Assembly (NCBI GenBank): GCA_026707285.1
Contig: JAPOXD010000035.1
Coordinates: forward strand, 1-51,962
Direction of reading: 5' to 3'
Source: Chloroflexota bacterium
Lineage (GTDB): Bacteria; Chloroflexota; UBA11872
DNA: 51,962 bases
A program made the translations under genes and the position numbers. Every line of letters begins with the position of its first letter. Position 1 is the stretch's first letter. The notes under the pieces are model-generated. The model had not been told where the DNA came from, ran no database searches, and worked only from the letters and a program-made list of their open reading frames with translations. Positions 1 to 27,079 of this stretch are shown here, in pieces.

Positions 1-656
1 TCCGCGATGCCCGACGTGTCCGCCGTCAGCGTCTGGCCCACCTCGGGCGTGCCGCTGATGGTCGGGGCGCCAGTCGCCAGGCGGTTCGGGCGGGCCGCCA
101 CCTCGCCCGTCGCCGCGCTGGAGAGCGACTCGGCATGGCCGGCGTCGTCGGTGAACGTCACCCGAACCTTGATGGTTGCCCCCGCGTCGGCGTCCACCAG
201 CTCGTAGCTTGCGCCGGTGGCGCGGTCGATTTCGGCGTCATTGCGAATCCACTTGTAGTTGAACGTCGCGTTGGCCAGGCCGTCGGCGTCGGCGATGCCC
301 GACGCGTCCGCCGTCAGCGTCTGGCCCACCTCGGGCGTGCCGCCGATGGTCGGGGCGCCCGTCGCTGTCCGGTTTGGCCTGGCCGCGACCTCGGCCGTCG
401 GCGCGCTGGTGAGCGACTCGGCATGCCCGGCGTCGTCGGAGAACGTCACCCGAACCTTGATGGTTGCGCCCGCGTCGGCGTCCGCCAGCCCGTACGTCGC
501 GCCGGCCGCGCCGTCGATGCCGGCGTCATTGCGAATCCACATGTAGTTGAACGTCGCGTTGGCGAGGCCATCGGCATCCGCAAGGCTCGATGTGTCGACG
601 CCTAGGGTTTCCCCGACCTGCGGCGTGCCGCTGATGGTCGGGGTACCGGTCGCCGG
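1..656 (-). repeat. Ig-like repeats of 96 residues in the giant protein
   Basis: Three units, the last partial, repeat with a 288-bp period; for example positions 7-52 and 295-340 are nearly identical. Each unit encodes a module with GTPEVGQTLTAD, ADADGLANATFNYKWIRND and AGATIKVRVTFSDDAGHAES. Modules of this wording recur in large extracellular proteins of environmental bacteria. The near-identity of neighbouring copies suggests recent tandem duplication, and the array continues off the left edge. Confidence 0.9.
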
Positions 657-15600: not shown

Positions 15601-18600
15601 GGGGCGCTCACGTCGCCCTTGGTTTCAAACTGCACCGTCACCGCTTCCGCCGCTACGCCCCCGGTCAGCGTGACGGTGAACTGGGCATCCTGCCCTTCGG
15701 CCACCGTCTCGGCATCGGCCGTGATGGTGGCGGCCAGCGTCTCGTCGTCCCGGATGCTGACCTCGTAGGACGCCCCGGTAGGAGAAATCGACAGCAGCCT
15801 GGATCCCGCCTGGACCAGCTCGACCGTGAACGTCTCCAACGCCGGCTCGAAGAGGTTGTCGTCTTCGAGATAGACGTCCAGGAATCCAGTGGTGTCTCCA
15901 ATGGGGAAGTTGAACACGCCGCCGGCCGCCCGATAGTCCGCGCCCTCGGTCGCCGTGCCGGCCACCACCTGCCAGCCCACGGCCGGGCGCCGCTCGCTGG
16001 CCACGGTGTTTGGATGCTTGAGCTCCACCATGAACCGCACCGGGCCGCTGTGGTCTTCGTCGACGACCGCGTACGCCCGGCTCACCGAGGCCACCATGGG
16101 CTGTTCGTCGTCGATGATGGTGCCGACCGCGGTGTCATCCGCCAGGCTCGAATGATGCGGCGGGCTCCTGAGCCGGACCTCTAACGTTTCGCTCTTCTCC
16201 TGGATGGCGTCGTCGGTTACGGCAACGGTGAAGGTCTTCTGCTGCTCCCCGACCGCGAAGGTGAGGGTCTCCGACTTCGCCTCGAAGTCCTGGCCCAGGC
16301 TGGTGGCAGTCACGTTGGCGTGCGACGTGGCCTCACCGTCCACCGTCATCACCTGAACGGTCACCTCCTCGGGCGCCGCCGCGTTCAGGCTCACGGTGAA
16401 GTCCAGCTGGCGGGCCGCCTCGCCGGCCTGGGCGTCCTGAACCGAGAACGTCAAGTCGTTGTCATGGACCGTGCGACGCACGGTGGGCATGTCGTGGCCC
16501 GGGATCTGGGGAAGCGCCCCGAATATGGGCGAGTACCCCGCGCCATTGAGAACCTCGGCCGTGACGGTCCCGGTGGCCTCGACGGTCGCGTCGTCGTCGA
16601 TGGGAATCGTCAGCGAGGCGTAGGACGAGCCGGGGGCGAACGTGACCGTCGTCGGGGCCGAGCCCGAGATCACGTTGCCTTGCTGGGTCACGCGAACGTT
16701 GACCGTCAGCGCCACGTTGCCCGGATCGCCGTCGAAGTCGAAGCACTGCGTGGACTGGTCGCCATAGCACGGGTCGTCGGCGTCCAGCGGCGCTCCGGCC
16801 GCTAGCGGCGGAAGACGCTTGATCCGCAGGACGATGTCCTGTCCCTCCACCACCGAGCCTTGCGCGTCGGTGTCGAAGATCACGGCCATCGCCAGCTCGT
16901 CATCGAGGATGGTCCCGCTGGCGGTGTCGTCGCCCAGGACCAGCTCGGAGGGGTTGCTCAGCACCACGTTGAAGGTCTCGTGGTCTTCGTCCATTGAGTC
17001 GTCGAGCAGCGTGACGGTGAACGTCTTCTCGGTTTCGCCAATGGCGAAGGTCAGGGAGCCGCTGGCGGCCGTGTAGTCGGTCCCGGCCGTCGCCGCCTTG
17101 GTGGAGCCGTCGTCCGCCGTGGCCCAATCCACCGTGGCGACCTGCTCCAGGTTCGGGGCGTCCAGGCTGACGGTGAAGGTGATGCTCCCGTCCGCCTCCC
17201 GGCCCTCGGCGTCGGCCACGCTCACGCCGGGCTGCACGTAGTCGTTGTCGGTAACCGCCGTGGTTACCCTCCATGACTCCCACGCCGTGCCTATGTATTG
17301 ACCGACGCCGTAGCAGCGCTCGTCGTCGGTACAGTCCGCTCTCAGTTCGTAATGGAGGGCCACGCTGATCGAACCATCAACCTCGTCCACCGCGTCGTCG
17401 GTGGTCGGAATGGTGAGGGTGGCTGTCGCCTCGTTGGCGGCGACAGTGATCGTCTGCTGAGTGACGCTGGAGAGGTAGTCGCCCTCCTGGGTCAGATTCA
17501 CCCTGACCTCGAGGGGCCGCGACATGGCGTCGGGCTTGCCCCCCTGGCGGCGCAGGGTGAAGGTGGCGGCGTCGCCCTCGTTCACGGAGGCCTGGTCCGC
17601 ATCGATGCGCACCCCCATGAAGCTGCTGTAGTACCGGAATTCAACGTTCGACGGGGTCCCCACCTGGTATTGGGGAAAGTAGCCGCAGTCTGCCGGGTTG
17701 TTGGGGCAATAGTGGGAGCGCAGCTCCATGTTCCCGGATATGCCGAGAGCATGGATGTAACCGAGCGTACGAATGCTGACGCCGTGAGCGTCCCCCGGCT
17801 GGAACCCGAATCCCAGGGTTTCAGTGTCGGTATACGTTTCATTCCCGAGTGGAGCTGGCCGGTAGCGGGTCTGGGTGAAGTCGTAGTTCAGCCAGAGCAA
17901 GCCTGACGCGTCGCCGGTGCGGCTGAAGGGAAGCTGGGGCTTGTAGTCGAGCCCATCGTAGAGATCGCTCGTCGTCGACGTCCCGGTCACGGTGGGAATG
18001 TCGTTGTCCCGGACCCAAATCTGGGCGGACGAGCTGCTCAGGGCAATGTAGTCGTCGTCCGCGTCGTTGAGGACCGTGGCGTGGTAGGTGCTGTTGCCGT
18101 GGGGCAGGGTGTCGTCGGTAGTCGGTCGGGTGATGGTGACGGAATTCGTTCCGATTGGGAATTCGACCGTGATCTCCTCCACGCCGAAGTGGATGTGATA
18201 CCGAGGGCTGGTGATGCCACGGGTGGGGTCGTCCAGGTCCGCCTGGGTCACCCGGTACCTGACCCGCGTGAGCTCGAGCCGGGCCTCCAGGGCAGTGTTC
18301 GTGGGGTTCGTTCGGGAGACCGTGAAGGACACCGAATCCCCCTCGGTCACCCAGTTCTGGTCGCGGGCGACGGTCACCGAGGGCTTGAACCCGTCGTCGT
18401 CGTAGATGGTGAAGGTGTGGGTGTTGGGCCAGCCGGCTCGATAGTCCGTGCCGTCCACCACAGTGACCGTCAGCTTGCCGATGTCCTCGGCCGTGGCGTC
18501 GTCTTCGGTCGGGATGGTGACGATGATGTCTTTGCTGCCCTTGGGGAACGTTGCGGTCTGAGGCAGTGAGCCGCTGGCGTACTGCCCGGTTTCGGTCACG

Positions 18601-21600
18601 TCCAGGGTCACCGTAAGTGCCGGTCCGGTAGAGCGCCTGATCAACTCCAGCTCGATGGTCTCGCCCTCGGCGATCCGTAGCTGGGAGGTGTTCAGATCCA
18701 CCAGCCCGAGGTTGACATCCCGCACGGTCACCGAGGCGGTTGCGGGGCTTCCCCGCCGGTAGATCTTGGATTCGCCAATCGACGTCGGGGCCACCAGGGT
18801 TACGGTGACGGTGTGGGGGCCGGCCCGTTCGTCGTCGTCGGTCGTGGTGATGGTGTGGTCCACGGTGTCCGATCCCGCGGGAAACACCACGGTGTCGCGG
18901 CGGCTCAGGGCCTGCGGGGCGGTCTTGTCCACATCCAGCCACACGGTCAGCTCGTCGGTCGGATCGCCGTCTCGGGTGAGGGTCAGCACCACGTCACTGC
19001 CCTCGTCAACGGACTGCGCCTGAGCTTCAAGCGTGACCTCGGACTCGTCGTCGGTGATGACGCCCCGGGCGGTCAGCGAGGCCTGCCCGTCCTGAAGGGT
19101 CGCGTAGACGGGATTGCTCAGCACCACCGTGAAGTCCTCGGTGAGCTCGGCGAGCCGGTCATTGACCACCGGCACCTCGATCACCGCGCTCCTTGCGCCG
19201 GGAGCGAAGGTGAGCGTCCCCGTGGATTCGACGATGTCGTCGCTGGCGCCGGGAACGCCGTCGGTGATCTCGTAGTCGACGGTGATGGTCCGGAGCGACG
19301 GCAGCGGGCTGACCATGTCCACCCAGAATTCCGCCGTGCCGTCGGCTTCGCCTACCTCGACGGCGATGTCCCGGAATCCGAGCACGGGCAGCGGGTCTCG
19401 GTCGCGCACTGCGATCGTCGCCGAAGCCTGGGCGGGATCGATGACGTAGCCGTCGCCGGGCTCCAGCGTGACCACGAAGAACGCGTCCGCCTCATTGCCG
19501 TCGTTGGCCTCGGTGAGGTACGCCCGCGTGATCCCGGAATTTCCCGTCAGGATCGTGTGCGTTCGTGGGCTCAGCAGGCCGTCCGGGACCGCGCTGCCGA
19601 TCTCGGCGTGCGAGACGGTCACCGGCAGCGGCGCCTCGGTGTGGCCGTCGTGCACGATCCGGTAGTAGAGCAGGGCGCCTTCGTCCACCACCCTGGTGAT
19701 GGCCCGCACGCCAACCGTGTAGGGATCGTCGTCCAGAATCGTGCCCCGAACCGTGGTCGGGCCCGTTGGCGTCCAAAACTCCGGCCGCCCGGGGTGCAGC
19801 GTGAACTCGTAGTGCCGGTCCGGGGCCTTGTAGTCGTCGTCGTCGTCGAAGGTCAGGTGCAGCAGGGATTCGCCGGATCCCATCCCGAACGCCATGTATT
19901 GCTGTGCGCCGACCGGTCCGCCCGTGATGGTGAACTCGATCGGGTTCTTGTCCTCGCCGATCCGTTGCATTATCAGGATCAGCGGGTTGCCCTCGATCAC
20001 CTCCGGGTGGTTGAAGACGATTTGCACCTGCGGCGCCACGTCGTTGTCCGCCACGTCCACCGTCACCGAGTCGGCGCCCGTGATCTGGTACTCGCGCGCC
20101 GGCTTCACCGTGAAGGTCAGCGTGCTGTCGGGAATGTCCCGCCAGTCGTCCGGCGGCGTCAGGACGATCTCCTTCACGGCTTCACCCGCGGCGAAGACCA
20201 CGTTGGTCGGCGTGGTCACGGCTTCGCTGGCGAAGTTGCCGTCGAGGAACCCGCCGGGGTCGTCGACCGACACGCCCACGATCGACTCGACCGCCGTGTT
20301 GTTGGTCCGGGTCAGCGTGAAGGTGACCGGCTCGCCCTCGGTGATGCTGGTGGTGTCGGCGCTGAGGCTGATGGTCGGGAGGTCGTCGTCCTGGATGCGC
20401 ACCTCCGTTATCGGGGTGCGGCGGTCTTGACCGTGGATAGTCCAGGAAGCCCTGAGCTTGAGAGTGTCCCGGGGTTCGTAGTCCACGTCGTCCCCGGTGG
20501 CGATGGTGAGCGTCTGCGTCTGGGTCTCGGACGCCACGAATGGGAGGAAGCGGTCCGTCAACGGAATCGCCGGGAATGTCACCTCGTAGACCCGGTCGGT
20601 GGGATTGGTTCCATCGGGTCGCTGCTGATTGGGTTCCCACGTGTCCACCCGCACGGTGAACGGCTCTATGAGGTACCCGTAAACGCGCTCGACGGAGAGT
20701 GTGATCGACTGGCCCTCGGGCACCGGTTGCGGCGCAATCGAGGTGAAGCGGATCTGCACGAGTGGCGTCTCGCCGGGGCCATCAATTGTGTGCGATCTGC
20801 TTCCGTTCACGGTCCAGTATTGGGCCTCTTCGGCGTCGGTCAGGGCAGTTCCGTCGGCGGCCTCGATGCGTATGATTTCCGCCGAATACTCCCAATCGCT
20901 AGGGTCGTCAATCCCGTTGTGGAGAACTTCGATCCGACCGACGACGCTCCGCTGGTTGCCGGTGAGAGTCAGGGGGAATTCCTGGTAGCGGTTGCCGGTT
21001 AGCGGGTCGATGGGCCAGTGGGAGTGCCGTGGACCCGCCCACCCGCGGTTGTGCTCCACCCGCACCACGAAGGACACCGGCTTGCCAATGTCCTGCGCGC
21101 GGCGGCTGACCATGAAGTGCAGCGGCCAGCGCTCCTCGATTTCGTCCCAGTGGCGAAAACTCCGTCCGTCTTCGTAGTAGAAGAACCCCTCGGCGGGGCC
21201 GGGCGTGCAGTCGCCGGTGCCAGGGCAGAGAAGCCAAGCCTCACCTGCTTCCCACGAAGACTCGTCGTAGCCGACCCAGCCCCACTCGAGCGTTAGCTCC
21301 TGGGCGGTGTCGGTGTCGGAGACCGATATGCTGTCAAAGGTCCCGTGGCCCGATTGCCCAAGCAGATAGCCGGTTCCGGGAAGCACGCGGACGGTGACCA
21401 GGCCGGCGCTGGGCAGGTCGCGCTCGTCGTCGGGGGCGGTGAGCGTGAGCGTGTGGGTCGTGGCGTTTGCCGCGAAGGTGATTTGCGAGGGAATGACGGG
21501 CGCGGGATCCCAGTGGTTGCCCCGCAGATGGTCGTTCGGGTCGTCCACGCGGATGTTGACGGTCAGCTCGGAGGCCGCGTCTCCGCCGGTGCGGGTGAAC

Positions 21601-23300
21601 GTGAAGCTGCCGGATTGCCCCTCCACAATCGAGTTCTGATCCCTGGCCACGGTGACGATGGTGCTGCCGCTGGGAGGATCGTTGATCTCGACTTCGACCT
21701 GGTTGGGAGTTCCCTCGGTATAGCGACTGCCGCTGATTGACTCGATGTCGGCGAGCAAGATGTCGGTGGTCTCAACCTCACCGTCGACGTAGGGGTAAAC
21801 CTCAATGGTGGCGATGGTCTGCCACGGATCGAGCGTCACGTCGTGGTAGAGCGTGCTGGGATTGACGCCGAAGCCTTCCTGGCGATTCGCTTCGCTGGTC
21901 TGGACCCGGACAGTCACCGATTGGCTGGTCGGGCCGTCGACGCGGACGATTTCGAACACCACCTCCTCACCCTCGGTGACCGTGGACCGATCCGCCTCGA
22001 TCGTGACCAGACCGTTGGTGGCGCCGGTGTCGGTGACGTCGATCGAGGTTTCCCGAAATCCCTGCTTGACGGTCCAATACTCGGCCTCGGCGGACGCGCT
22101 GAGGTCGGCGCCGTTGGCGTTTTGCAACGGTCGAATCGAGGCCCAAAAGCCCCAGTTGGTCTCGGTCTCGCCGTTGGTGGTGATCCGCAGCTCTTCCTTC
22201 ACCTCGAGATCGGTTCCCGACAGGTCGAGGGGAAAGTCCTTGTAGAAGCGGCCGGAGTTGGAGTCTTCGGTCCAATCGGCGAGCCGATAGTCTGCGCCGC
22301 TGCGATCGGTCTCCAGCCTGACCGTGAAGACCGCTGTCTGGTTCGCGTCCTGGGAGCGTCGCTTCACCACGATGGCAACCTTGTCGCCCTCGGTCGCGTC
22401 GGCGTCGTTGACGCCGTCCTTGCCGAAGTTGAGCTCCAGCTCCTGGGCCGTGTCGTTGTCGGTGACCGTGACGCTGGCCGAGGGCTCGAGTCCCGAGCCG
22501 CCGACGAGATAGTCGCGGGAGTGCCGCAGCGCGACCTCAACGTCGCCGTCCGCCAGGTCGCGCAGGTCGTCGGGAGTCGCTAGCGAGAGCGTTTGGCTGG
22601 TCTCGTTCGCCGCGAACTCCACCTGCGTGGGAAACGTGGGCGGCGGGTCCCAGTGGTTGCCGCGCAGGCGATTGTCCGGGTCCTTGACGCGAATACCCAC
22701 GGTCAATGGATCGGCCGTTTCGCCGTCGCGCGTCAAGGTGAAGGCGGCGGTCCCGCCTTCGGCGACCGAGGCCTGGTCCGCGCTGATTGTGACGCGGCTG
22801 AATCCGGCGGGCGCCTGCTGCACGTCGGAGACCGGCACGGAGGCGATGCCGGGGCTGCCGACCACGTAGTTGCCGAGGGATTGATAACGGTCGTTTGACG
22901 GCAGGACCTGCGCCTTGAGCTCCAGCGTGCCCGCATTGACGTCTGGATCCACGAAGGCGCCCACGGTGAACGTGGCCACGCGGGAGTTGACGGCGAACGT
23001 CACCTGATGGGTGTGCTCGGTCTCGTTCTGGCCCAGCGCGTCTTCGTGATGCGGCTCCCAGGTCTTTACCCGGACATGCCTCTCCGCCACGCCGCCGTGC
23101 CAACGTGTGAGCGTGAAGCTGGTCAGCCCACCTTCGGAGACCCCAAGATCATCGGCGGCGATGGTGACCGTGTTTGTGGCATCGCTGAAGGTCTGCGCCC
23201 GCGCCGTGTCGGAAAGGTCGACGGCGAAAACCGCCGCGGCGCCGGCCACCAGCATGAGGACCAGGCGAAGAAGGGGTGCGGCCGCCTTGGCCAGGCGCAC
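1..23300 (-). CDS. Giant secreted Calx-beta/FN3 surface protein (at least 7,766 aa; C-terminus beyond the left edge)
   Basis: This minus-strand frame has its codons ending on coordinates divisible by three. I checked every line for in-frame TAA, TAG and TGA and found none from position 23,456 to position 1. The chosen GTG at 23,300 opens a textbook Sec signal peptide: basic VRLAKAA, a hydrophobic stretch, then an ARAQ-like cleavage site near residue 36. An in-frame TTG at 23,360 with GGGGG just upstream is an alternative start. The mature chain is almost wholly beta-sandwich repeats: divergent Calx-beta modules (roughly 13,560-23,190), TYTVVLDT-type modules (11,930-13,560), a regular Calx-beta array (3,020-11,920), then FN3, SwmB-like and Ig-like modules. 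Many junctions carry DDDD or DNDT strings, as expected for calcium-binding linkers. By family it should be a very large adhesin or surface-layer filament. No enzyme domain or anchor is visible in the sequenced part; sorting or secretion signals would be at the missing C-terminus. Its ligand cannot be inferred. Confidence 0.93.
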   Translation of the reverse strand, partial: MRLAKAAAPLLRLVLMLVAGAAAVFAVDLSDTARAQTFSDATNTVTIAADDLGVSEGGLTSFTLTRWHGGVAERHVRVKTWEPHHEDALGQNETEHTHQVTFAVNSRVATFTVGAFVDPDVNAGTLELKAQVLPSNDRYQSLGNYVVGSPGIASVPVSDVQQAPAGFSRVTISADQASVAEGGTAAFTLTRDGETADPLTVGIRVKDPDNRLRGNHWDPPPTFPTQVEFAANETSQTLSLATPDDLRDLADGDVEVALRHSRDYLVGGSGLEPSASVTVTDNDTAQELELNFGKDGVNDADATEGDKVAIVVKRRSQDANQTAVFTVRLETDRSGADYRLADWTEDSNSGRFYKDFPLDLSGTDLEVKEELRITTNGETETNWGFWASIRPLQNANGADLSASAEAEYWTVKQGFRETSIDVTDTGATNGLVTIEADRSTVTEGEEVVFEIVRVDGPTSQSVTVRVQTSEANRQEGFGVNPSTLYHDVTLDPWQTIATIEVYPYVDGEVETTDILLADIESISGSRYTEGTPNQVEVEINDPPSGSTIVTVARDQNSIVEGQSGSFTFTRTGGDAASELTVNIRVDDPNDHLRGNHWDPAPVIPSQITFAANATTHTLTLTAPDDERDLPSAGLVTVRVLPGTGYLLGQSGHGTFDSISVSDTDTAQELTLEWGWVGYDESSWEAGEAWLLCPGTGDCTPGPAEGFFYYEDGRSFRHWDEIEERWPLHFMVSRRAQDIGKPVSFVVRVEHNRGWAGPRHSHWPIDPLTGNRYQEFPLTLTGNQRSVVGRIEVLHNGIDDPSDWEYSAEIIRIEAADGTALTDAEEAQYWTVNGSRSHTIDGPGETPLVQIRFTSIAPQPVPEGQSITLSVERVYGYLIEPFTVRVDTWEPNQQRPDGTNPTDRVYEVTFPAIPLTDRFLPFVASETQTQTLTIATGDDVDYEPRDTLKLRASWTIHGQDRRTPITEVRIQDDDLPTISLSADTTSITEGEPVTFTLTRTNNTAVESIVGVSVDDPGGFLDGNFASEAVTTPTNVVFAAGEAVKEIVLTPPDDWRDIPDSTLTFTVKPAREYQITGADSVTVDVADNDVAPQVQIVFNHPEVIEGNPLILIMQRIGEDKNPIEFTITGGPVGAQQYMAFGMGSGESLLHLTFDDDDDYKAPDRHYEFTLHPGRPEFWTPTGPTTVRGTILDDDPYTVGVRAITRVVDEGALLYYRIVHDGHTEAPLPVTVSHAEIGSAVPDGLLSPRTHTILTGNSGITRAYLTEANDGNEADAFFVVTLEPGDGYVIDPAQASATIAVRDRDPLPVLGFRDIAVEVGEADGTAEFWVDMVSPLPSLRTITVDYEITDGVPGASDDIVESTGTLTFAPGARSAVIEVPVVNDRLAELTEDFTVVLSNPVYATLQDGQASLTARGVITDDESEVTLEAQAQSVDEGSDVVLTLTRDGDPTDELTVWLDVDKTAPQALSRRDTVVFPAGSDTVDHTITTTDDDERAGPHTVTVTLVAPTSIGESKIYRRGSPATASVTVRDVNLGLVDLNTSQLRIAEGETIELELIRRSTGPALTVTLDVTETGQYASGSLPQTATFPKGSKDIIVTIPTEDDATAEDIGKLTVTVVDGTDYRAGWPNTHTFTIYDDDGFKPSVTVARDQNWVTEGDSVSFTVSRTNPTNTALEARLELTRVRYRVTQADLDDPTRGITSPRYHIHFGVEEITVEFPIGTNSVTITRPTTDDTLPHGNSTYHATVLNDADDDYIALSSSSAQIWVRDNDIPTVTGTSTTSDLYDGLDYKPQLPFSRTGDASGLLWLNYDFTQTRYRPAPLGNETYTDTETLGFGFQPGDAHGVSIRTLGYIHALGISGNMELRSHYCPNNPADCGYFPQYQVGTPSNVEFRYYSSFMGVRIDADQASVNEGDAATFTLRRQGGKPDAMSRPLEVRVNLTQEGDYLSSVTQQTITVAANEATATLTIPTTDDAVDEVDGSISVALHYELRADCTDDERCYGVGQYIGTAWESWRVTTAVTDNDYVQPGVSVADAEGREADGSITFTVSLDAPNLEQVATVDWATADDGSTKAATAGTDYTAASGSLTFAIGETEKTFTVTLLDDSMDEDHETFNVVLSNPSELVLGDDTASGTILDDELAMAVIFDTDAQGSVVEGQDIVLRIKRLPPLAAGAPLDADDPCYGDQSTQCFDFDGDPGNVALTVNVRVTQQGNVISGSAPTTVTFAPGSSYASLTIPIDDDATVEATGTVTAEVLNGAGYSPIFGALPQIPGHDMPTVRRTVHDNDLTFSVQDAQAGEAARQLDFTVSLNAAAPEEVTVQVMTVDGEATSHANVTATSLGQDFEAKSETLTFAVGEQQKTFTVAVTDDAIQEKSETLEVRLRSPPHHSSLADDTAVGTIIDDEQPMVASVSRAYAVVDEDHSGPVRFMVELKHPNTVASERRPAVGWQVVAGTATEGADYRAAGGVFNFPIGDTTGFLDVYLEDDNLFEPALETFTVELVQAGSRLLSISPTGASYEVSIRDDETLAATITADAETVAEGQDAQFTVTLTGGVAAEAVTVQFETKGDVSAPDDYSTPIGNLTFPPGNTTGSQGVLTIPAGEIKGTITFPIRADGTDDDDETMTVEISNGAAGSRAVTIASGDDRASTNILDQDSLTVSIQGTPSVAEGTAATFTVVLSVASDEDVSVDWSTTQAGDTLAGGETAEPDADYPAATGTVAIAAGSTSATFTVATTDDTLVEGNETFRVVLDEARITSTSPHEMVPLGVTAATGTIQDNDTAPTGVTVSANPRRLAEDDGATDITVTVSLDGTTQFTVDTPVTVEMVDRPGVNRNATLGVDYTATTSNTVIPAGQSSVVTTITLTPVDDNIAEDDEVARLSAKSSALAGTDGKGVVIEDNDVEPVEVVLSVDPDTVDESESSAALTVTGTLSGQATRVVDTVVTLSQSDGTAVAGDDYSTSTATLTIPAGEISATAVLVLTVLDDNIAEGSETLQVSGTTAGISVVPTDLTIQDNDAEPTSIGLSVTSAPIGEGGGAATVSVQATLLGAGTRSMDTLVTLTVVGLTATETDDYTATFDSSTLTIPAGQFSGTGTLTLTPNDDTLYEGDEFLAVRGTNATPGLPVNGVRLTIVDDDPAPTTVRLVIYQETLSEGAGVWLLDVQAVLEGKTTLTEDIEIETTLIREGSEVRSENVIQVIPLNIDAGKSVGETIYYLRDLNDDVHDGDETLELRGTTDTPGLHVISDQVIVTNDDTSGIRLSTPALTVREGRTQRYTVRLTSEPVDPVTVTLDVPPNAGFSVNPGTLTFTSQSWSRKFVTVTGLQDDDGVDEAAANITHTVSSTDERYRSHTVPDVLVTVRDNDTPGVTISETVLPLDEGTSGAYTVVLDTEPTANVTVTVVVPNGAELSLSSQSLTFTNSNWNIEQTVTVTASHDADVADEAPVTLTHAASGAAEYVSLALGSVDVKVTDDDEAGVTIAPAALDIPEGQSRTYTVVLDTQPTGDVTVTIGGAAGTDLSLNASTLTFTAVSWSAAQTVTVTAAPDGDTTDDPATLTHTVGSTADSDYANVAAESVAVTVEDVVGAGVTISETSLPIDEGDSATYTVVLDTRPFGDVTVTLGGLGGTDLSVGSSSLTFKPENWSTAQTVTVSAAQDADAVDDTATITHTVSSIADSDYDGLSAGSLGVTVNDDDDPGITVSESSLTVIEGASTTYTVVLDTQPIADVTVAVTAPGGSDVTADPTSLTFTDSNWANAQTVTVSAAHDADALDDPATITHATNSTDGDYSGISVADVDVTVIDDEDIPVTVSFGQASYSVAESDDPSTTNVTENDVTVTVTLSEDPEREVVITLFRVNQGGATSGDYSGVPASVTFQSGDTDQTFTFSAAPDTLDDDGESVRLSFGNLPNAVTAGTPAATTVAIADDDDPRVTVSFGQAGYTVAESDDPATTNMTENEVTVTVTLSADPERTVEIPISRTNQGGASNGDYEGVPARVTFASGDTTQTFTFTAKPDALDDDGESVELTFGNLPARVSAGAPAATTVSIADDDDPAVTVSFGAATYTVAESDDPLTLSVAENEVTVTVTLSADPERDGEVTLLKVNQGGASSADYSGVPPRVTFLSGDTEQTFTFTAEPDNADDDGESVKLTLASLPDRVSAGTHPSTTVSITDDDDPAVTVSFGNSAHAVAEGHDVTVTVLLSANPERTVEVPITVTNMDGATSADYSGVPPRLTFVSGDTTETFNFRAEQDTIDDDGERVRLTFGTLPTRVTSTSPSQVVVAITDDDDPAVTVSFGQASYSVAESDDPVTTNVTEHEVEVTVELSADPERTVEIPLTVTPQDGATSSDYSGVPPRLTFNAGDTTKTFTFRATPDTIDDDGEWVRLTFGTLPPRVTAASPSQAVVTIADDDDPAVTVRFGQTSYSATEGSTVTVTVRLSADPERTVEIPITTTNQGGATNADYEGVPPTVTFVSGDTEESFTFTAKQDAVDDDDERVRLGFGNLPARVSAGSPSQTTVAITDDDVPAVTVSFGQASYSVAESDDSATPNLTENEVEVTVTLSADPEREVEITLFRVNQGGASSGDYSGVPTALTFESGDTEQTFTFSAAHDTLDDDGESVRLSFGGLPNAVTAGTHAATTVSITDDDDPAVTVRFGQSTYPVTEGDDVTVTVRLSADPERTVEIPLTTTNQGGASSGDYSGVPPRVTFVSGDTTETFTFSALHDTVDDDGESVRLAFGNLPARVSPGSPAATTVAIADDDVPSVTVGFASDSYTVAESDDPDTVNVTENEAVISVTLSADPERTVVVPLTVTNQGGATGADYSGVPANVTFTSGQTQQTFRFSATDDAVDDDGECVKLAIGAALPAAVSVGATDATTVAITDDDDPEVSVRFGAPGYTVAEGESVDITITLSADPERTVEIPLTTTEQGGATGADYSNVPATVTFNSGDTELTFALDATQDAVDDDGESVKVGFGSMLPAGVTVDTSIPSGDTQARDTTTVAITDDDGAGVTVTPTALPIAEGHSEAYTVVLDSQPTAAVTIAVNAPSGSDVSVDETSLTFTASTWSQAQTVTVSAAQDADAVDDTESITHAAASSDGDYDGISVSPVRVTVRDDEDVPVTVGFEQPTYAVTEGNDVTVTVTLSADPERTVEIPLTATNQGGATSADYGGVPATVTFASGDTEQTFTFTAKQDTVDDDGESVKLAIGATLPTAVSVGATAATTVSITDDDVPAVTVSFGQAAYPVAEGNDVTVTVTLSADPERTVAIPLATTHLGGASNVDYSGVPAEVTFTSGETEQTFRFSATDDTVDDDGESVRLTFGALQARVSEGGTDETVVRIADDDDPAVSVSFGAATYTVAEGDDVMVPVTLSADPERTVAITVLRLNQGGSGTEDYSGVPTSLTFASGQTAQTITFSATADNVDDDGESVKLTLGNLPSRVSAGAHLSTTVAITDDDVPAVNVSFGQPTYSAPEGGHVTVKVKLSADPERTVEIPLTTTEQGGATSADYVGGLTTVTFSAGDTEKEFNFSAVQDAVDDDGESVKLGFGNLPTRVSAGAPATTTVTIADDDDPAVTVSFGQASYSVAESDDPGTTNATEHEVEVTVTLSANPEREVVIPLTTTNQGGASTNDYSGVPANVTFTDGDTTKSFTFRATADAVDDDGESVKLGFGGTLPAGVSVGTPATTTVSIADDDHPAVTVSFGQASFSATEGGTATVTVKLSADPERRVEVPITLTNMDGATSADYSGVPPQVTFVSGDTTETFEFRAEQDAIDDDGERVRLTFGTLPPRVSSASPSQAVVAITDDDDPAVTVSFAQASYSVAESDDPSTTNATEHEVEVTVTLSANPERLVVIPLTTTHQGGASSSDYSGVPANLTFTSGVTAKSFAFRATPDAVDDDGESVKLGFGGGLPAGVSVGAPATSTVSINDDDDPAVTVSFGQSGYSVAESDDPSTTNVTENEVVVTVKLSADPERTVEIPLTTTHQGGASNGDYSGVPTEVTFTSGETEQTFTFRAEGDSADDDGESVKLGFGASLPTGVSAGAPATTTVSIADDDDPAATVSFGQAAYPVAEGDDVTVTVRLSADPERTVEVPITVTNMDGATAADYSGVPARVTFVSGDTTETFSFRAEQDAIDDDGERVKLTFGTLPDRVSSTSPSQAVVSIADDDDPAVTVSFGRTSYSVAESDDPSTTTLAEHEVEVTVALSADPERTVEIPLTATAQDGATSSDYSGVPPRLTFNAGDTTRSFTFRATADTVDDDGEWVRLTFGTLPPGVTAVSPSQAVVTITDDDDPEVTVSFGQSSYSVAESDDTSTTNVTENEVEVTVTLSADPERTVEIPLTTTNLGGASNGDYSGVPAKVTFTSGETEQTFTFSATSDSVDDDGESVRLGFGASLPARVTAGTPDTATVSITDDDDPAVTVSFGQATYTVAEGTDETVALRLSADPERTVEVPLLKANQGGATSADYSGVPATVTFHSGDTEVTFKFSAASDSANDDGESVKLSFGSLPTRVSAGTPASTTVTITDDDVPTVTVSFGQASYGVAESDDTSTTSVTENEVVVTVTLSADPERTVEIPITTTNQDGASSADYEGVPARLTFASGDTLETFTFRAKPDSIDDDGESVKLGFGGSLPLGVSEGATDEAVVSIADDDDPAVSVSFGASTYTVDEYDDPSTTNVAENEVVVTVELSADPEREVVIPLTRTNQNGATDSDYTGVPTNVTFVSGDTRQTFTFMAVDDSDDDDGESVELGFGGSLPTGVSAGASATTTVTISDDDRVPITDPNERPGFTKEIPYAEGSVLVRFDAERYSATEGGLDAIVTVRLDSSREEPVEITLTAEGHAGATPDDWTGVPPVLTFGAWEIQKSFTLVAVDDTIEDDGEMVRLGFGNLPEGYVAAHPSTADVTLMNDDADQPATCDSGIWCAVLKLADSSNDDFGRLHLGYHGTQDPYADRSSISSDHFTFRGETFKVWSVHTWPNIDPSLDPRPAYGIPERSRFSIHIRRVDGPSWAAEVKRDHWEDWTLHIGDVAVRFTEVDGHNGNTFVWLSEAFYLLFMDWMPSTTHQIWIEETPLEDLPDPAVTVPSEPRYLRVVPFDNQLVATWRDPVSDGNSPITGYRLQWKPDAESWSNANAVSEAMVDEWPPGTAEMHRIIGELTDGSTYTVRVMAVNAVGDSAPSNEHFGMSQSAGPQLTSNTVNGAELTLTFDRNLDETSVPDVSRFAVIVNGGLRDVIFVSISGRSVTLLLSSPVSAADEVEMRYLMPASADEPAIRDTDGNYAASCDFSEPGSESENLTEPAGLQPLTAQFEQMPETHSGPDDELRFHIRFSEPVRIDAGPAFAFLLTVSGGDVTSAWWVNRDARLWEVVLAPDSQDDITITLPADRACDARGAPCASGDRRLTNSLEHTITGDGAPSEGRSVNSNRQGQGTDGKSKSTTGQSKSTTNAGKSVEPSVGKSVDPPASPPQAPQNLGATANSDGSVTLTWDAPDDASVSGYRILRRRPTEGEDALQVYVEDTGSTDTTYTDTETTSDVRHVYRVKAIGKSGVSEASNRTEVTPTLPPTNAPATGTPTISGTPQVGETLGVDTSSLADADGLANATFNYMWIRNDAGIDGAAGATYGLADADAGATIKVRVTFSDDAGHAESLTSAPTAEVAARPNRTATGAPTIGGTPEVGQTLTADASGIADADGLANATFNYKWIRNDAEIDRATGASYELVDADAGATIKVRVTFTDDAGHAESLSSAATGEVAARPNRLATGAPTISGTPEVGQTLTADTSGIA
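690..960 (-). other. Fibronectin type III module of the giant protein
   Basis: The frame encodes an FN3-type module with PQAPQNLGATANSDGSVTLT, TWDAPDDASVSGYRILRR, a TTYTDTET turn and VYRVKAIGKSGVSEASN. The order and spacing of these strands is the usual FN3 signature. It sits between the low-complexity linker on its N-terminal side and the Ig-like repeats on its C-terminal side. Confidence 0.85.
960..1110 (-). other. Low-complexity Ser/Lys/Thr linker in the giant protein
   Basis: This is a short flexible segment built from repeated GKS and SKSTT words (for example SKSTTGQSKSTTNAGKS and GKSVEPSVGKSVDPP). It separates an Ig-like module from the FN3 module. It is the only clearly disordered stretch I saw in the chain. 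A hinge, a glycosylation site or a proteolytic site are possible; none can be shown from the sequence. Confidence 0.7.
1130..1790 (-). other. SwmB-like module followed by an LTVSGGDVTSAW-type Ig-like module
   Basis: Positions 1,500-1,790 encode LTSNTVNGAELTLTFD, a VSRFAVIVNG strand and DTDGNYAAS. This matches the SwmB-type repeat, named after a cyanobacterial swimming-motility surface protein. Positions 1,130-1,490 encode FRIRFSEPV-like and LTVSGGDVTSAWWVNRDARL strands, then DDITITLPADRACDARG and DRRLTN. That wording often accompanies FN3 modules in environmental surface proteins. Both occur once in the visible part of the gene. Confidence 0.7.
1805..2640 (-). other. Second FN3 module and a non-repeated beta-rich module
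   Basis: Positions 1,805-2,110 encode an FN3 module (SEPRYLRVVPFDNQLVATW, ITGYRLQWKPD, YTVRVMAVNAVGDSAPSN). Positions 2,150-2,640 encode a module of about 160 residues with LHLGYHG, SSDHFTFRGETFKVW, WTLHIGDVAVRF and a tryptophan-rich end. The second is not a Calx-beta repeat. Its pattern (GY, then a F-x-Y/F-x-G strand, then WTLHIG) recalls uncharacterised modules in similar giant proteins. It closes the long Calx-beta array. Confidence 0.6.
3020..11920 (-). repeat. Array of about 24 Calx-beta repeats in two length classes
   Basis: DDDD-coding junctions recur about every 340 or 370 bp (near 3,020, 3,388, 3,760, 4,100, 4,470, 4,838, 5,180, 5,550, 5,920, 6,262, 6,632, 6,972, and so on to 11,920). 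A unit reads VTVSFGQASYSVAES, VTVTLSADPERTVEIPL, GGASNGDYSGVP, VTFTSGETEQTFTF, then DDDGESVKL and a closing DDDD. The long units carry about ten extra residues of the type SDDPSTTNVTENE; the short units lack them. One unit near 8,005-8,320 belongs to the TYTVVLDT type instead. The repeats are close to Pfam Calx-beta in layout and are probably calcium-stiffened beta sandwiches. Confidence 0.9.
11930..13560 (-). repeat. Five TYTVVLDT/NWxxAQTVTVT-type modules
   Basis: Units of about 320-330 bp encode GVTISETSL, a TYTVVLDTQP strand, SLTF, a NW-x-x-AQTVTV strand, and DADAVDDTATITHTVSS followed by DYDGLS. They differ from the neighbouring Calx-beta repeats in wording and lack the DPERTVEIP strand. 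The same type is inserted once at 8,005-8,320, in the middle of the regular array, which shows module shuffling within the gene. Confidence 0.85.
13560..23190 (-). repeat. N-terminal region of divergent Calx-beta-type modules
   Basis: The first 3,200 or so residues after the signal peptide are modules that keep Calx-beta features (VSEGG or VAEGG openings, DNDT or DDE closings, FTV-L strands) but diverge strongly from one another. A recurring subtype contains LRGNHWDP, FAANxT and PDDxRDL and is seen at 21,350-21,700, 22,500-22,800 and, more weakly, elsewhere. The high divergence here compared with the near-identical array at 3,020-11,920 indicates an older N-terminal region and a younger expanding C-terminal region. 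Confidence 0.8.
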
Positions 23301-23483
23301 TCTGGTGCCGCCCGACCTAGCTGTCGGAGCGCGTCGTTGACTCCTGAGCAGGCCGAACAAACATTCCCCCCGGACCGGAGGGCAACCGCCACTTTGGGGT
23401 CGCCCCGAGACTGCGGCGCAATCTCTCCGTGCAGCTCCCCGCGGCTGCAACCGGTACTACGCGAGTAGTCTAAATAGACCAGT

Positions 23484-23533
23484 ATTAGAGTCGCGTGAGA
23501 AAGCGCCACGGAGGCATGTGACCATCGTTAGAC
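23484..23533 (+). repeat. Spaced direct repeat, copy 1 (candidate operator)
   Basis: This copy has ATTAGAG, four bases, GTGAGAAA, twelve bases, CATGTGA, then a looser tail ending AGAC. The second copy at 23,645-23,694 keeps all three blocks at identical spacing without gaps. Copy 1 lies 120-185 bp upstream of the giant gene's possible start codons. Block conservation at fixed spacing suggests a protein-binding or promoter element rather than a chance match. Confidence 0.55.
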
Positions 23534-23644: not shown

Positions 23645-23694
23645 ATTAGAGCCCTGTGAGAAACGCGTGGAAACTCATGTGAGTATTGTGAGAC
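23645..23694 (+). repeat. Spaced direct repeat, copy 2 (candidate operator)
   Basis: This is the second copy of the ATTAGAG-4-GTGAGAAA-12-CATGTGA element, 161 bp from the first and in the same orientation. It ends about 55 bp upstream of the GTG start of the regulator gene. OmpR-family regulators often bind direct repeats, so the neighbouring OmpR-type protein is a natural candidate ligand. That link is inference. Confidence 0.55.
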
Positions 23695-23748
23695 CTAATT
23701 CGATTTGGTATATTTCCACCACTCAGCGCCAGGACTTCCAGCGCCCGC

Positions 23749-26160
23749 GTGCATACACACAACGCTCCGGTCGGCGCCGAGGCGGAAGCGGTCGGCGACG
23801 CGCGCGATCCCACGTCCCGGATGGCGGAAGCCTGCTTCCGCGTCACCGGGATGCTCGACGTCGACGACGCGGTGCAGGCGCTGGTGGACGAGGCCCGGTC
23901 GATCACCGACGCCCGCTACGGGGTGCTTGTGACGTTCGACGACGCCGGACACCTCGAGGACGCGGTGATGTCGGGGATGAGTCCCGCCGAGCGCGAACGG
24001 CTATCGGGGCTGCCCGAGGGCCAGCAACTCTTTGCGCACCTGCGGCACCTGCCGGGTGCGCTTCGAGTCCAGAATCTCCGGACCTACACCGCGTCACTCG
24101 GCTTTCCCGCCGACGCGATGCTCGCCGAGAGCTTTCTGGGAATGCCGATGCGCCACCTGGGCCAGCAAATCGGATGCGTCTTCCTGGGCGGCAAGCTCGA
24201 TGGCACGGAGTTCACACCGGAAAATGAACGCATCCTGGGCATGTTCGCGTCCCACGCGGCCGTGGTGCTCACCAACGCACGGTCGTATCGGGACGAACAG
24301 CGGGCCAAGGCCGAGCTGGAAGCCCTGATCAATGACTCTCCGCTCGGCGTGCTGGTGTTCGACGCGCGAACCGGCAATCTCCTGACCGTCAACGAGGAGA
24401 CGCGACGCATCGTGGGGGGCATGCGCGGGCGCGGCCACTCGCTGGAGGCGCTGTTGGGCGTGATGACCTTTCGCCACCCGGATGGGCACGAGCTCGATCT
24501 CGACGAGCTGCCGCTGACCCGCGCCCTGAGCAGCGGCGCCACCGTGCGCGCGGAGGAGCTCGTCATCGAGCATGCCGATGGACAAACGGTGCGCGTCCTG
24601 GTCAACGCCAAGCCCATCCGCTCGGAGGAAGGCGAGATCGTGTCCGTCGTCGCCACCATCCAGGACATGTCGTCGCTGGAGGAGGTCGAGCGCCAACGGG
24701 CCGAATTCCTGGGAATGGTGAGTCGCGGGCTGCGCACGCCGCTGACCACGATCAAGGGGTCCACTGCGACCGTGCTGAGCTCGTCCGCCCGGCCCGATCC
24801 GCAGGAGATGCTGCAGTTCTTCCAGATCATCGACGATCAAGCCGACCGGCTGCGGGAGCTGACGGCCGACCTCCTGGAAATCTCGCGCATCGAGACCGGC
24901 AAGCTGTCAGTCGCACCGCGACCGACCGACGTGGCGGAACTGGTCAACGAGGCCGCGCGCGCGTTCGAGCAATCCGACGCCACGCAACGCCTCCGTACGG
25001 TCCTTGCGCCTGAACTTCCCCCAGTTGCCGCCGAGGCTTCTCGTCTGCTCCAGGTGTTTCGCAACCTGCTCGGCACCGCGTCGCTTCTCTCACCGCGCGG
25101 TTCCACGATCACGCTGACGGCTTCCAAATCCGACGCCCACGTGGCGATCTACATCGCCTTTCAGGGCACCGAAATACCGGCCGACGACCGCCCGCATATC
25201 TTCAGCAAGCTCTACCGGCTGTCCGACGAATCCGCACACACGGCGAGCACCAATCTGGGCTTGGCGATTTCCAAGGGAATCGTGGAAGCTCACGGCGGGC
25301 GAATCTGGGCGGCAAGCGATGCCCCTGCGCGCGGATCGCAATTCGTCTTCACCCTGCCCATGGCAGCGCTGGACGAGCCTGCCGAGGATGCCTCGCCGCC
25401 GCTCGAGCGTACGTCGGATCAGGTGTCGACCGGCTCCGCGAGTCGCGAGGCGATCGTCGTCCTTGACAGTGACCCGCGCCTTCTGCGCTACGTTCGCCAT
25501 GAGCTCCGCGACGCCGGATTCAACCCCTATGTCGCCGACGACTACTTAATGCTCAAAGACCTTGTTCGAACGCGCCGGCCAAGCCTGGTTCTCGTGGACG
25601 TGAACGTCCTCAGCTTGGACGGCATTTCCTGGAACACACGACTCGCCGAGATCAGTGACGTGCCAACAATCGCGCTCTGCGATCGGGAGAGCGATCCTGA
25701 CCTTTCCGCCGCCCTCGAGTCCGGCGCCGTTGACTATCTGACCAAGCCCTTCTCGCCGAACGAGCTCCTCGCACGAGTAAGAATCGCGCTGACCAGGGCT
25801 CCTGCCTCAACCGCCGACGACCAGAGTCACCACTTTGTGCTCAAGGATCTCTCGATCAACTACGCGGCGCGTACCGTCACGGTTGCCGGACGGCCGGTCC
25901 AACTATCGGTCACCGAATACAATTTGCTTGCGGAACTGTCCACAAATTCCGGACGGGTATTGACCCAACATCACCTCCTCCAACGAGTTTGGGGACCCGG
26001 CCATTTGGACAATTCACAGATTCTCCGCACGTACATCAGATACTTGCGGAGAAAGCTCCACGACGACGTCAGCGATCCCAAATACATCTTCACATCGCCA
26101 TCCGTGGGCTACCACATGCCGGCACCCCCTGCTCCGGATGCCGCTGACGAGTCACTCTGA
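23749..26160 (+). CDS. GAF-PAS-degenerate histidine kinase-receiver-OmpR winged-helix fusion regulator
   Basis: The 803-residue soluble protein has a GAF-like domain (about 25-180), a PAS-like domain (190-310), a kinase core (315-540), a receiver (567-682) and an OmpR/PhoB-type DNA-binding domain (697-790). The kinase core looks inactive. The H-box His is replaced by Arg (VSRGLRTPL, R326). The N-box Asn is Thr (NLLGTAS, T443). The G1 DxGxG motif is AFQGTEIP (about 470-477). The G2-like LGLAISKGIVEAHGG remains. The receiver keeps its acidic pair, D617 and K666. The winged helix looks complete (VTEYNLLAEL, RTYIRYLRRKL, VGYHMP). The protein therefore probably senses a small ligand and binds DNA without its own phosphorelay. 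The start is GTG; an in-frame ATG at 23,821 is an alternative. It diverges from the giant gene and may control it (inference). Confidence 0.9.
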   Translation: MHTHNAPVGAEAEAVGDARDPTSRMAEACFRVTGMLDVDDAVQALVDEARSITDARYGVLVTFDDAGHLEDAVMSGMSPAERERLSGLPEGQQLFAHLRHLPGALRVQNLRTYTASLGFPADAMLAESFLGMPMRHLGQQIGCVFLGGKLDGTEFTPENERILGMFASHAAVVLTNARSYRDEQRAKAELEALINDSPLGVLVFDARTGNLLTVNEETRRIVGGMRGRGHSLEALLGVMTFRHPDGHELDLDELPLTRALSSGATVRAEELVIEHADGQTVRVLVNAKPIRSEEGEIVSVVATIQDMSSLEEVERQRAEFLGMVSRGLRTPLTTIKGSTATVLSSSARPDPQEMLQFFQIIDDQADRLRELTADLLEISRIETGKLSVAPRPTDVAELVNEAARAFEQSDATQRLRTVLAPELPPVAAEASRLLQVFRNLLGTASLLSPRGSTITLTASKSDAHVAIYIAFQGTEIPADDRPHIFSKLYRLSDESAHTASTNLGLAISKGIVEAHGGRIWAASDAPARGSQFVFTLPMAALDEPAEDASPPLERTSDQVSTGSASREAIVVLDSDPRLLRYVRHELRDAGFNPYVADDYLMLKDLVRTRRPSLVLVDVNVLSLDGISWNTRLAEISDVPTIALCDRESDPDLSAALESGAVDYLTKPFSPNELLARVRIALTRAPASTADDQSHHFVLKDLSINYAARTVTVAGRPVQLSVTEYNLLAELSTNSGRVLTQHHLLQRVWGPGHLDNSQILRTYIRYLRRKLHDDVSDPKYIFTSPSVGYHMPAPPAPDAADESL

Positions 26161-26227: not shown

Positions 26228-27079
26228 ATGGCTATCCGCATCGTCACTGACAGCGTGGCCGACTTGCCCCCTGACGTTGCACGCGCCAACGAGATTTCTG
26301 TTGTGCCGCTATATGTCTTGATCGGCGGCGAAGCATTTCGGGACGGTATCGACATAGACGCCGATGCGTTCTATTCCCGCCTGATCACACTCGCCAAACT
26401 GCCGACCACGTCGCAGCCATCCGCTCTAGACTTTGCAGATGTATATCGCCGTTTGATAGACCAGGGTCATGACATCGTCTCGATCCATGTCAGCTCAAAG
26501 TTAAGCGGCACGCTAAACTCGGCGGAGCTGGCCAAGTCTGCGATCGGAGAGCCTCATCGCATCGAAATCGTCGACTCCCTACTCGCCGGCGGATCGCAGG
26601 GGCTCTTGACCCTCAGCGCGTCGGGGTGGGCGAAGGAAATGACCTCGCACATCGACGTGGCGCAACGCGTACGCGAATCCGCATCTGCAAATTTCGGTTA
26701 TATCACGGTCGACACTCTGAAATATCTTAAAATGGGCGGCCGCATTGGCAAGGCGCAAGCATTCCTGGGCGGCCTACTGGATTTCAAACCGATCGTTTGC
26801 GTTCGCGATGGCGAGGTGCACCCGGTCGAGCGTCCTCGAACTCGCCGTCGAGCCATTGCCCGGCTCACCTCAATAGTGCGCGACTTAGCCCCGATCCGAA
26901 GTCTGCACGTGAGCTATACCACCGGTGCTCAGGATGCCGTCGTCATTCGCGACGCGCTGGCCGATCTCGTGGATCCGGACGCGCTTGTGGAGTCACGGTT
27001 TGGACCGGTCCTGGGCACGCATCTTGGTCCCAACACCATTGGCGTGGCAGTAACTCGCGCGAACTCCGCCGGGTACTAG
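26228..27079 (+). CDS. DegV family protein (EDD-fold fatty-acid-binding protein)
   Basis: The 283-residue protein begins IRIVTDSVADLPPDVARANE, the standard DegV N-terminus. It has TSQPSALDF for lipid binding, a VSIHVSSKLSGTLNSA segment, and the conserved VDTLKYLKMGGRIGKAQAF stretch. DegV proteins bind fatty acids and, in Firmicutes, some act as FakB partners of a fatty acid kinase. No FakA-type gene is nearby. The length is normal for the family. It follows the regulator gene by 67 bp on the same strand, so co-transcription is possible. The Shine-Dalgarno sequence is weak. Confidence 0.93.
   Translation: MAIRIVTDSVADLPPDVARANEISVVPLYVLIGGEAFRDGIDIDADAFYSRLITLAKLPTTSQPSALDFADVYRRLIDQGHDIVSIHVSSKLSGTLNSAELAKSAIGEPHRIEIVDSLLAGGSQGLLTLSASGWAKEMTSHIDVAQRVRESASANFGYITVDTLKYLKMGGRIGKAQAFLGGLLDFKPIVCVRDGEVHPVERPRTRRRAIARLTSIVRDLAPIRSLHVSYTTGAQDAVVIRDALADLVDPDALVESRFGPVLGTHLGPNTIGVAVTRANSAGY

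Follow-up and report, generated by a model that had tools for sequence, protein, structure and literature searches.

A single-chain two-component regulator of a Chloroflexota bacterium with catalytic losses in both kinase and receiver

What does a regulator do that carries the kinase, receiver, and DNA-binding modules of a hybrid two-component system within one open frame but has lost residues on which phosphotransfer depends? The question is raised by a gene in a 51,962-nucleotide stretch of a Chloroflexota genome (contig JAPOXD010000035.1; the whole stretch is referred to here as the window). A preliminary description, made from the letters of the sequence, had proposed that the protein was built from a dead histidine kinase. 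The family was searched in its own genome, in its order and class (41 genomes), and in a 400-genome sample of the phylum.

The gene and its domain layout

The gene occupies positions 23749..26160 of the forward strand, stop codon included, and encodes a single-chain regulator of 803 amino acids with the domain order GAF-PAS-DHp-CA-REC-wHTH. This assignment draws on the open frame, on Pfam, and on the one close ortholog found among the 41 class genomes, L013 in genome G011, which belongs to another genus of the same family and is 60% identical. All six domains score above the gathering score in a Pfam profile search. From the N terminus, all on the forward strand, they are a GAF domain of the DosS/DevS-like kind that lacks the heme-ligand His (residues 36 to 174; 23854..24270), a PAS domain (residues 189 to 307; 24313..24669), the HisKA or DHp domain (residues 316 to 384; 24694..24900), a degenerate HATPase_c or CA domain (residues 430 to 539; 25036..25365), a Response_reg domain (REC) that is a pseudo-receiver (residues 569 to 678; 25453..25782), and an OmpR/PhoB-type winged helix (Trans_reg_C; residues 714 to 789; 25888..26115; Pfam E value of 1.5e-19), for which the closest solved structures are KdpE and other OmpR/PhoB regulators. 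Pfam thus finds every one of the GAF, PAS, receiver, and winged-helix modules that had been placed on one chain beforehand, the receiver, though, in degenerate form. The GTG at 23749 is a plausible start codon, ahead of which no clear Shine-Dalgarno sequence is present, and the first 18 residues have low model confidence in AlphaFold. No transmembrane segment was seen in the regulator on inspection by eye, and no sensor domain other than GAF and PAS was found.

Loss of the kinase motifs is shared with an ortholog

The H-box of the window protein, FLGMVSRGLRTPL, contains SRGLRT where relatives have SHELRT. The two substitutions responsible, H326R and E327G, are both common to the ortholog and are encoded by adjacent codons (24724..24729, forward strand) that read CGC GGG in the window and CAC GAG in the relative L014. 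In the alignment, three further motifs on the same strand have changed: the N-box reads NLLGTA instead of NLxxNA (N443T; 25075..25077), the G1 box is lost, with AFQGTEI in place of xDEGRGI (D471F and G475E; 25159..25173), and the G2 box is altered (G502N; 25246..25260). The preliminary description had listed the His-to-Arg, Asn-to-Thr, and DxGxG losses, with which the alignment agrees while adding G502N, and had proposed a comparison with relatives that keep SHELR. In that comparison, H326, E327, N443, D471, G473, G475, and G502 are invariant in all 40 relatives outside the degenerate branch, a branch made up of two sequences, the window protein and L013.

The ortholog has the same SRGLRT, retains N443, and carries D471N and G504N. 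The phospho-accepting His is therefore Arg in both members of the branch and His in 40/40 relatives, while the Mg-ATP residues (the N-box Asn and DxGxG of G1) are missing in the window protein, and L013 has N443 but D471N. The His is also present in all 40 of the more remotely related single-chain proteins examined in the phylum, so that, among the relatives and outsiders compared, its loss is seen only in the window-L013 branch. The HisKA/HATPase_c fold is nevertheless retained, as indicated by the Pfam match and by the predicted DHp and CA folds. Sequencing errors, which had been named as a possible refutation, are ruled out at codons 326 and 327 because the ortholog, from another genus, has both H326R and E327G. 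Judged from these comparisons, the loss of H326 is real, old, and restricted to this branch.

Catalytic residues of the receiver are also missing

A pseudo-receiver has been defined by the loss of at least one of five catalytic residues, DD1, DD2, D, T/S, and K (PMC12632262). In the alignment, the window protein keeps D573, D617, and K666 of this set and has lost those at positions 574 and 644, so that two of the five are gone, compared with one in L013, and both receivers fall under the definition. The Mg-binding acid (DD2) of the acid pair, now D573-S574 (25465..25470, forward strand), is Asp in 39/40 relatives, Ser in the window protein, and Arg in L013; a nonacidic DD2 is found in ∼80% of pseudo-receivers (PMC12632262). 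The S/T position and the residue after it, T+1 (25678..25683, forward strand), read C644 and D645. The former is Ser in L013 (S644C in the window protein), and the latter, usually a small residue that gives access (PMC12632262), is Ala or Gly in 37/40 relatives, Asp in the window protein, and Glu in L013. The Pro at D+4 has become Leu in both proteins. Loss of DD2, an acidic T+1, and a missing D+4 Pro are features published for pseudo-receivers (PMC12632262). The phospho-acceptor position, D617 (25597..25599, forward strand), is retained together with K666 and Y663; it is Asn in 17/18 members of clade B, a related group described below.

Phosphorylation of D617 appears unlikely, because the Mg-binding acid is Ser or Arg and T+1 is Asp or Glu in the two orthologs. 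The same residues disfavor acetyl phosphate or any other donor to D617 and speak against the earlier suggestion that control might pass through a phospho-donor for this residue. What the preliminary description had listed as lost was thus right but incomplete, the receiver being degenerate along with the kinase.

These residues also bear on whether the protein might have survived as a phosphatase only, its DHp domain dephosphorylating either the receiver on the same chain or that of another protein. Both orthologs have kept the Thr of the HExxT motif (T330), and the conserved His is dispensable for HisKA phosphatase activity (PMC12632262); however, E327 is Gly, the nucleotide site of the window protein is destroyed, and receiver phosphorylation is not expected, which makes such a role scarcely credible.

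Only the catalytic modules are released from constraint

Identity between the window protein and L013 is 84% in GAF, 71% in PAS, 79% in DHp, and 63% in wHTH, compared with 44% in CA and 40% in REC. When intact pairs with a comparable overall identity are taken instead, CA and REC (∼64% each) rank with the better-conserved domains. When the contrast is expressed as the mean identity of GAF, PAS, DHp, and wHTH minus that of CA and REC, it amounts to 32.5 points in the window pair, whereas 780 intact pairs average -3.9 and do not exceed 10.6. The difference between DHp and CA is 34.7 points (at most 26.1 over the 780 intact pairs), and that between wHTH and REC is 23.9 points (at most 11.6). The dN values of CA (0.49) and REC (0.64) likewise lie above those of 115 to 127 matched intact pairs (0.14 to 0.43 and 0.19 to 0.51, respectively), and those of PAS, DHp, and wHTH are within the range of the matched pairs. 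By these measures, only the catalytic modules, CA and REC, are released from constraint, and the other modules are conserved.

The GAF domain has a dS of 0.63, compared with 1.1 to 1.8 in other regions of the gene, and its conservation was consequently dropped as independent evidence; the contrast of PAS, DHp, and wHTH with CA and REC stands without it. Because dS is low in GAF and only 0.1 to 0.5 in a neighboring giant gene, the region has probably been affected by recombination among lineages.

The loss of several catalytic motifs and the raised dN of CA and REC could also be the marks of a duplicated regulator that is becoming a pseudogene. This is highly improbable. In both genomes the frame is open across 803 codons, with a dS that exceeds 1 for most of the gene; every domain has a dN/dS under about 0.45; and the regulator, degV, and the giant gene are arranged in the same order. 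Because of the low dN/dS in all domains and the open frame, the gene is judged to be neither a pseudogene nor in decay.

If the gene is maintained, its product might still be a constitutive DNA binder, with a receiver locked in the active state, a vestigial sensor, and control by expression level alone. The Arg at DD2 in L013 resembles the activating D13K substitution of CheY, which reportedly activates without phosphate. Expression level is, moreover, thought to control some pseudo-receiver regulators (PMC12632262). The strong purifying selection on PAS and GAF (dN/dS of about 0.2) suggests a live input instead, and we regard constitutive binding as unlikely.

The conservation of DHp bears on a further alternative, to which we also assign a low probability: that the protein is a pseudokinase forming heterodimers with an active paralogous kinase and altering its output, in the way that RetS acts on GacS or that has been suggested for ChrS and HrrS, its DNA binding being secondary. 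The DHp domain is highly conserved, at 79% identity between the orthologs, intact-kinase paralogs are present in the same genome, and heterodimers are known for other paralogous kinases (PMC9491836 and PMC12189002). A homodimer scaffold predicts the conservation of DHp equally, however, and the conserved wHTH and the candidate operator at the gene's own promoter argue against a secondary place for DNA binding.

Predicted structure and the GAF domain

In an AlphaFold model based on a 43-sequence alignment (mean pLDDT of 79.8), every domain fold is kept, and a long helix from GAF to PAS and a DHp hairpin are present; the ATP-lid region is of low confidence, and the arrangement of the domains is unreliable at a pTM of 0.49. 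Foldseek matches include the active kinases WalK, HK853, and YycG, as well as KdpE. Among solved structures, the GAF domain matches DevS/DosS best (E value of 2e-17); the two differ at the position of the heme-ligand His, which is Ala in the window protein, and L013 has no His nearby. Heme sensing through a DosS-like GAF was considered and set aside on account of the missing ligand, and the sequence of the window GAF domain gives no reason to expect that it binds heme as DosS does.

Putative operators and neighboring genes

Two boxes precede the gene on the forward strand, box 1 (TTAGAGTCGCGTGAGAA; 23485..23501) and box 2 (TTAGAGCCCTGTGAGAA; 23646..23662), each with half-sites 11 bp apart. Half-sites of OmpR/PhoB operators are usually 11 bp apart, and both boxes are putative operators. 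Box 2 ends 23 nt before the -35 element of a sigma-70-like promoter recognized by consensus match only (TTGTGA-17-TATATT with TG before the -10 element; 23686..23714, forward strand). The pattern TKAGARNNNNNTGAGAR, which was defined after the region was seen, occurs twice in the 3.2-Mb genome, both times in the intergenic region upstream of the regulator, and three times in G011, where two of the occurrences match the window boxes in position and are separated by 159 bp, compared with 161 bp in the window. As the best intergenic direct repeat, the box pair was equaled in 7/300 shuffles when the window alone was considered. Autoregulation through the two putative boxes is likely on this evidence.

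The third exact box of G011 (G011:C16:43656-43672; L071) lies upstream of a gene for an RpoD-like sigma factor, at a distance of ∼160 bp. A wider regulon did not emerge from the box, sites with one mismatch being equal in number to those of a reversed-pattern control. The expectation that the box would track the recognition helix failed: an exact box is found at positions 991 to 1007 of L051 (G002), before an intact gene of clade A, at a distance from a similar promoter that nearly equals that in the window. Because the recognition helix of that gene is different, the binder of the boxes may be a regulator other than the window protein.

Downstream of the regulator lies a gene for a DegV-family protein (26228..27079, forward strand; Pfam DegV), a possible cotranscribed partner that has the same place in the gene order at the L013 locus; degV or a piece of it also adjoins L002, L045(+), and L017. 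Divergent from the regulator is the giant secreted-type gene (3..23456, reverse strand), whose frame of at least 7,818 amino acids runs off the contig end and whose start is likely near 23303. It has a signal-like N terminus, a Calx-beta domain, and long repeats and is 90.6% identical to its counterpart in G011, in another genus, over 13.8 kb. Because its dS is so far below that of the adjoining regulator, the giant gene appears to have been recombined or transferred. It is a possible target of the regulator.

A regulator that may work without phosphate

On balance, we consider it rather probable that the window protein, a hybrid two-component regulator by architecture, no longer uses a phosphorelay and acts as a one-component transcription factor independent of phosphorylation, a role that its domain layout and lost residues fit. 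The sequence evidence consists of the catalytic losses in kinase and receiver, common to the ortholog, and of the relaxation of the catalytic domains while the other modules are conserved. From it we infer that the protein is enzymatically inactive, that a signal is sensed, that GAF/PAS are coupled directly to DNA, and that the gene is autoregulated. Against a phosphate-free reading stand the retention of D617, K666, and Y663 and, in L013, of N443 and the REC Ser.

In the mechanism proposed, a cytoplasmic signal would be sensed by GAF, PAS, or both, and the resulting change would travel down the long coiled coil and through the helices of DHp, a domain retained as a scaffold for the dimer. Still folded, the ATPase and receiver domains would serve only as spacers or allosteric contacts, and the paired winged helices would bind tandem half-sites, first at the regulator's own promoter (boxes at 23485 and 23646). 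The preliminary description had already suggested that the dead kinase acts as a dimer or scaffold, with control from GAF/PAS to DNA in one chain; the loss common to two genera, the conserved DHp and wHTH, the fast CA and REC, the predicted intact fold, and the probable operator are in line with this. Its phrase about a dead kinase holds but understates the case, since the receiver half has been lost along with the kinase, and in sister clades the relay is disrupted by other changes.

Several known systems share parts of this arrangement. The hybrid two-component systems (HTCS) of Bacteroides, among them BT4236, likewise have sensor, HisKA kinase, receiver, and DNA-binding domain on one chain, and BT4236 has Gln at the phospho-His site, for which its authors suggest a phosphorylation-independent mechanism (PMC11253607). 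HTCS are membrane sensors, however, whereas the window protein has only GAF and PAS sensors and an OmpR-type winged helix; compared with BT4236, it has also lost the receiver pocket and the ATP site, and the loss can be traced in an ortholog. DivL, RetS, and ChrS(CA-fs) are similar in signaling through a kinase fold without, or not solely via, their own His-to-Asp transfer but differ in acting on partner kinases. None of the three is known to have its own receiver and winged-helix output. ChxR, BldM, WhiI, and CmrT have receivers that lack catalytic residues and bind DNA independently of phosphate, but they are separate proteins, whereas the pseudo-receiver in the window is fused behind a dead kinase and sensors.

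About 0.9% of HisKA domains are without the His, ∼6% of bacterial receivers are pseudo-receivers, and the activation mechanisms of the latter have been called a mystery (PMC12632262). A description of the family of the window protein was not found in the literature searched, a search that is no proof of absence. What is new here is that kinase and receiver losses occur together on a single, soluble-looking chain whose output is of the OmpR type, that an ortholog allows them to be traced, and that the evidence, resolved by domain, indicates release of the catalytic modules only. With both dead halves of the relay on one chain with sensors and output, with intact homologs, and with a candidate operator, phosphorylation-independent signaling becomes directly testable. 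Counting HATPase_c and receiver domains, in turn, overstates the number of working two-component systems in such genomes.

Related proteins have broken the relay at other residues

A tree was built on GAF, PAS, DHp, and wHTH, with residues 326 and 327 excluded. The window protein and L013 fall in a group of 21, together with clade B and L045(+), with support of 99/98; L055, which is partial and nearly identical to L014, was excluded from this group. The relay is broken in 20 of the 21 members, in 17 of them through the replacement of the receiver Asp by Asn, and L014 alone is complete. The clade B proteins L002 (G000:C48) and L003 (G000:C7), paralogs that sit in the genome of the window, resemble the window protein in their architecture, in their membership of the same group, and in having a broken relay, but the break is on the other side: as in the rest of the clade except for one member, the kinase is intact and position 617 is Asn. 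In the 22 members of clade A, the kinase boxes are intact and position 617 is Asp, L034 having Ser at DD2. The intact proteins of this clade, L019 and L042 among them, have the same domain order and length as the window protein and are 40 to 47% identical to it; unlike in the window protein, their H-, N-, G1-, and G2-boxes and their receiver pockets are complete.

L045(+) (G020, 3521-6190) has kept the His and lost N443, G473, G502, both DD acids, and the receiver Asp, now Glu. Its grouping with the window branch is neither supported nor rejected (AU test, P = 0.52). About 16 of the 40 phylum outsiders, mostly from family f21, independently combine an intact kinase with a degraded receiver; in this phylum, then, single-chain proteins seem to have been able to dispense with the relay more than once. 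We hold it possible, at somewhat less than an even chance, that the subfamily as a whole has abandoned His-Asp phosphotransfer in favor of a conformational signal passed along the chain, the catalytic residues that were broken varying from branch to branch. If so, the proteins would form a natural series from two-component to one-component regulators, with the loss of the receiver Asp (clade B), of the kinase and Mg site (window protein), and of nearly everything but the His (L045).

The clade B paralogs raise the alternative of a split relay, in which a paralog with an intact kinase and an Asn receiver phosphorylates D617 of the window protein in trans. Both genomes with a dead-kinase protein also carry such a paralog (intact kinase, D617N receiver), and D617 and K666 are retained. 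Nevertheless, Ser or Arg in place of the Mg-binding acid and Asp or Glu at T+1 should block phosphorylation, the receiver is the fastest-evolving domain, unlike a selected interface, and clade B is found in many genomes without a dead-kinase partner. The split relay therefore seems improbable to us, and signaling without phosphate remains the preferred reading for the window protein.

Some minor observations concern the same relatives. Clade B, with its conserved kinase fused to a nonphosphorylatable receiver, is found in nearly every genome of the family. In L119 to L140, single-chain kinase-receiver-winged-helix proteins mostly from f21, the kinase boxes are intact (AAHELKTPL), and the receivers are without the Asp (for example, LILLSTRLA) and the acid pair (for example, LAESD). 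L045(+) has degV downstream, and its GAF domain retains the DosS-like heme-ligand His (GFPENHPPM). Finally, a 2.8-kb stretch that includes the clade B gene is 97.5% identical between G000:C48 (about 85976-88784) and G000:C7 (2824-5630), with different flanks, and represents either a recent duplication or an assembly repeat.
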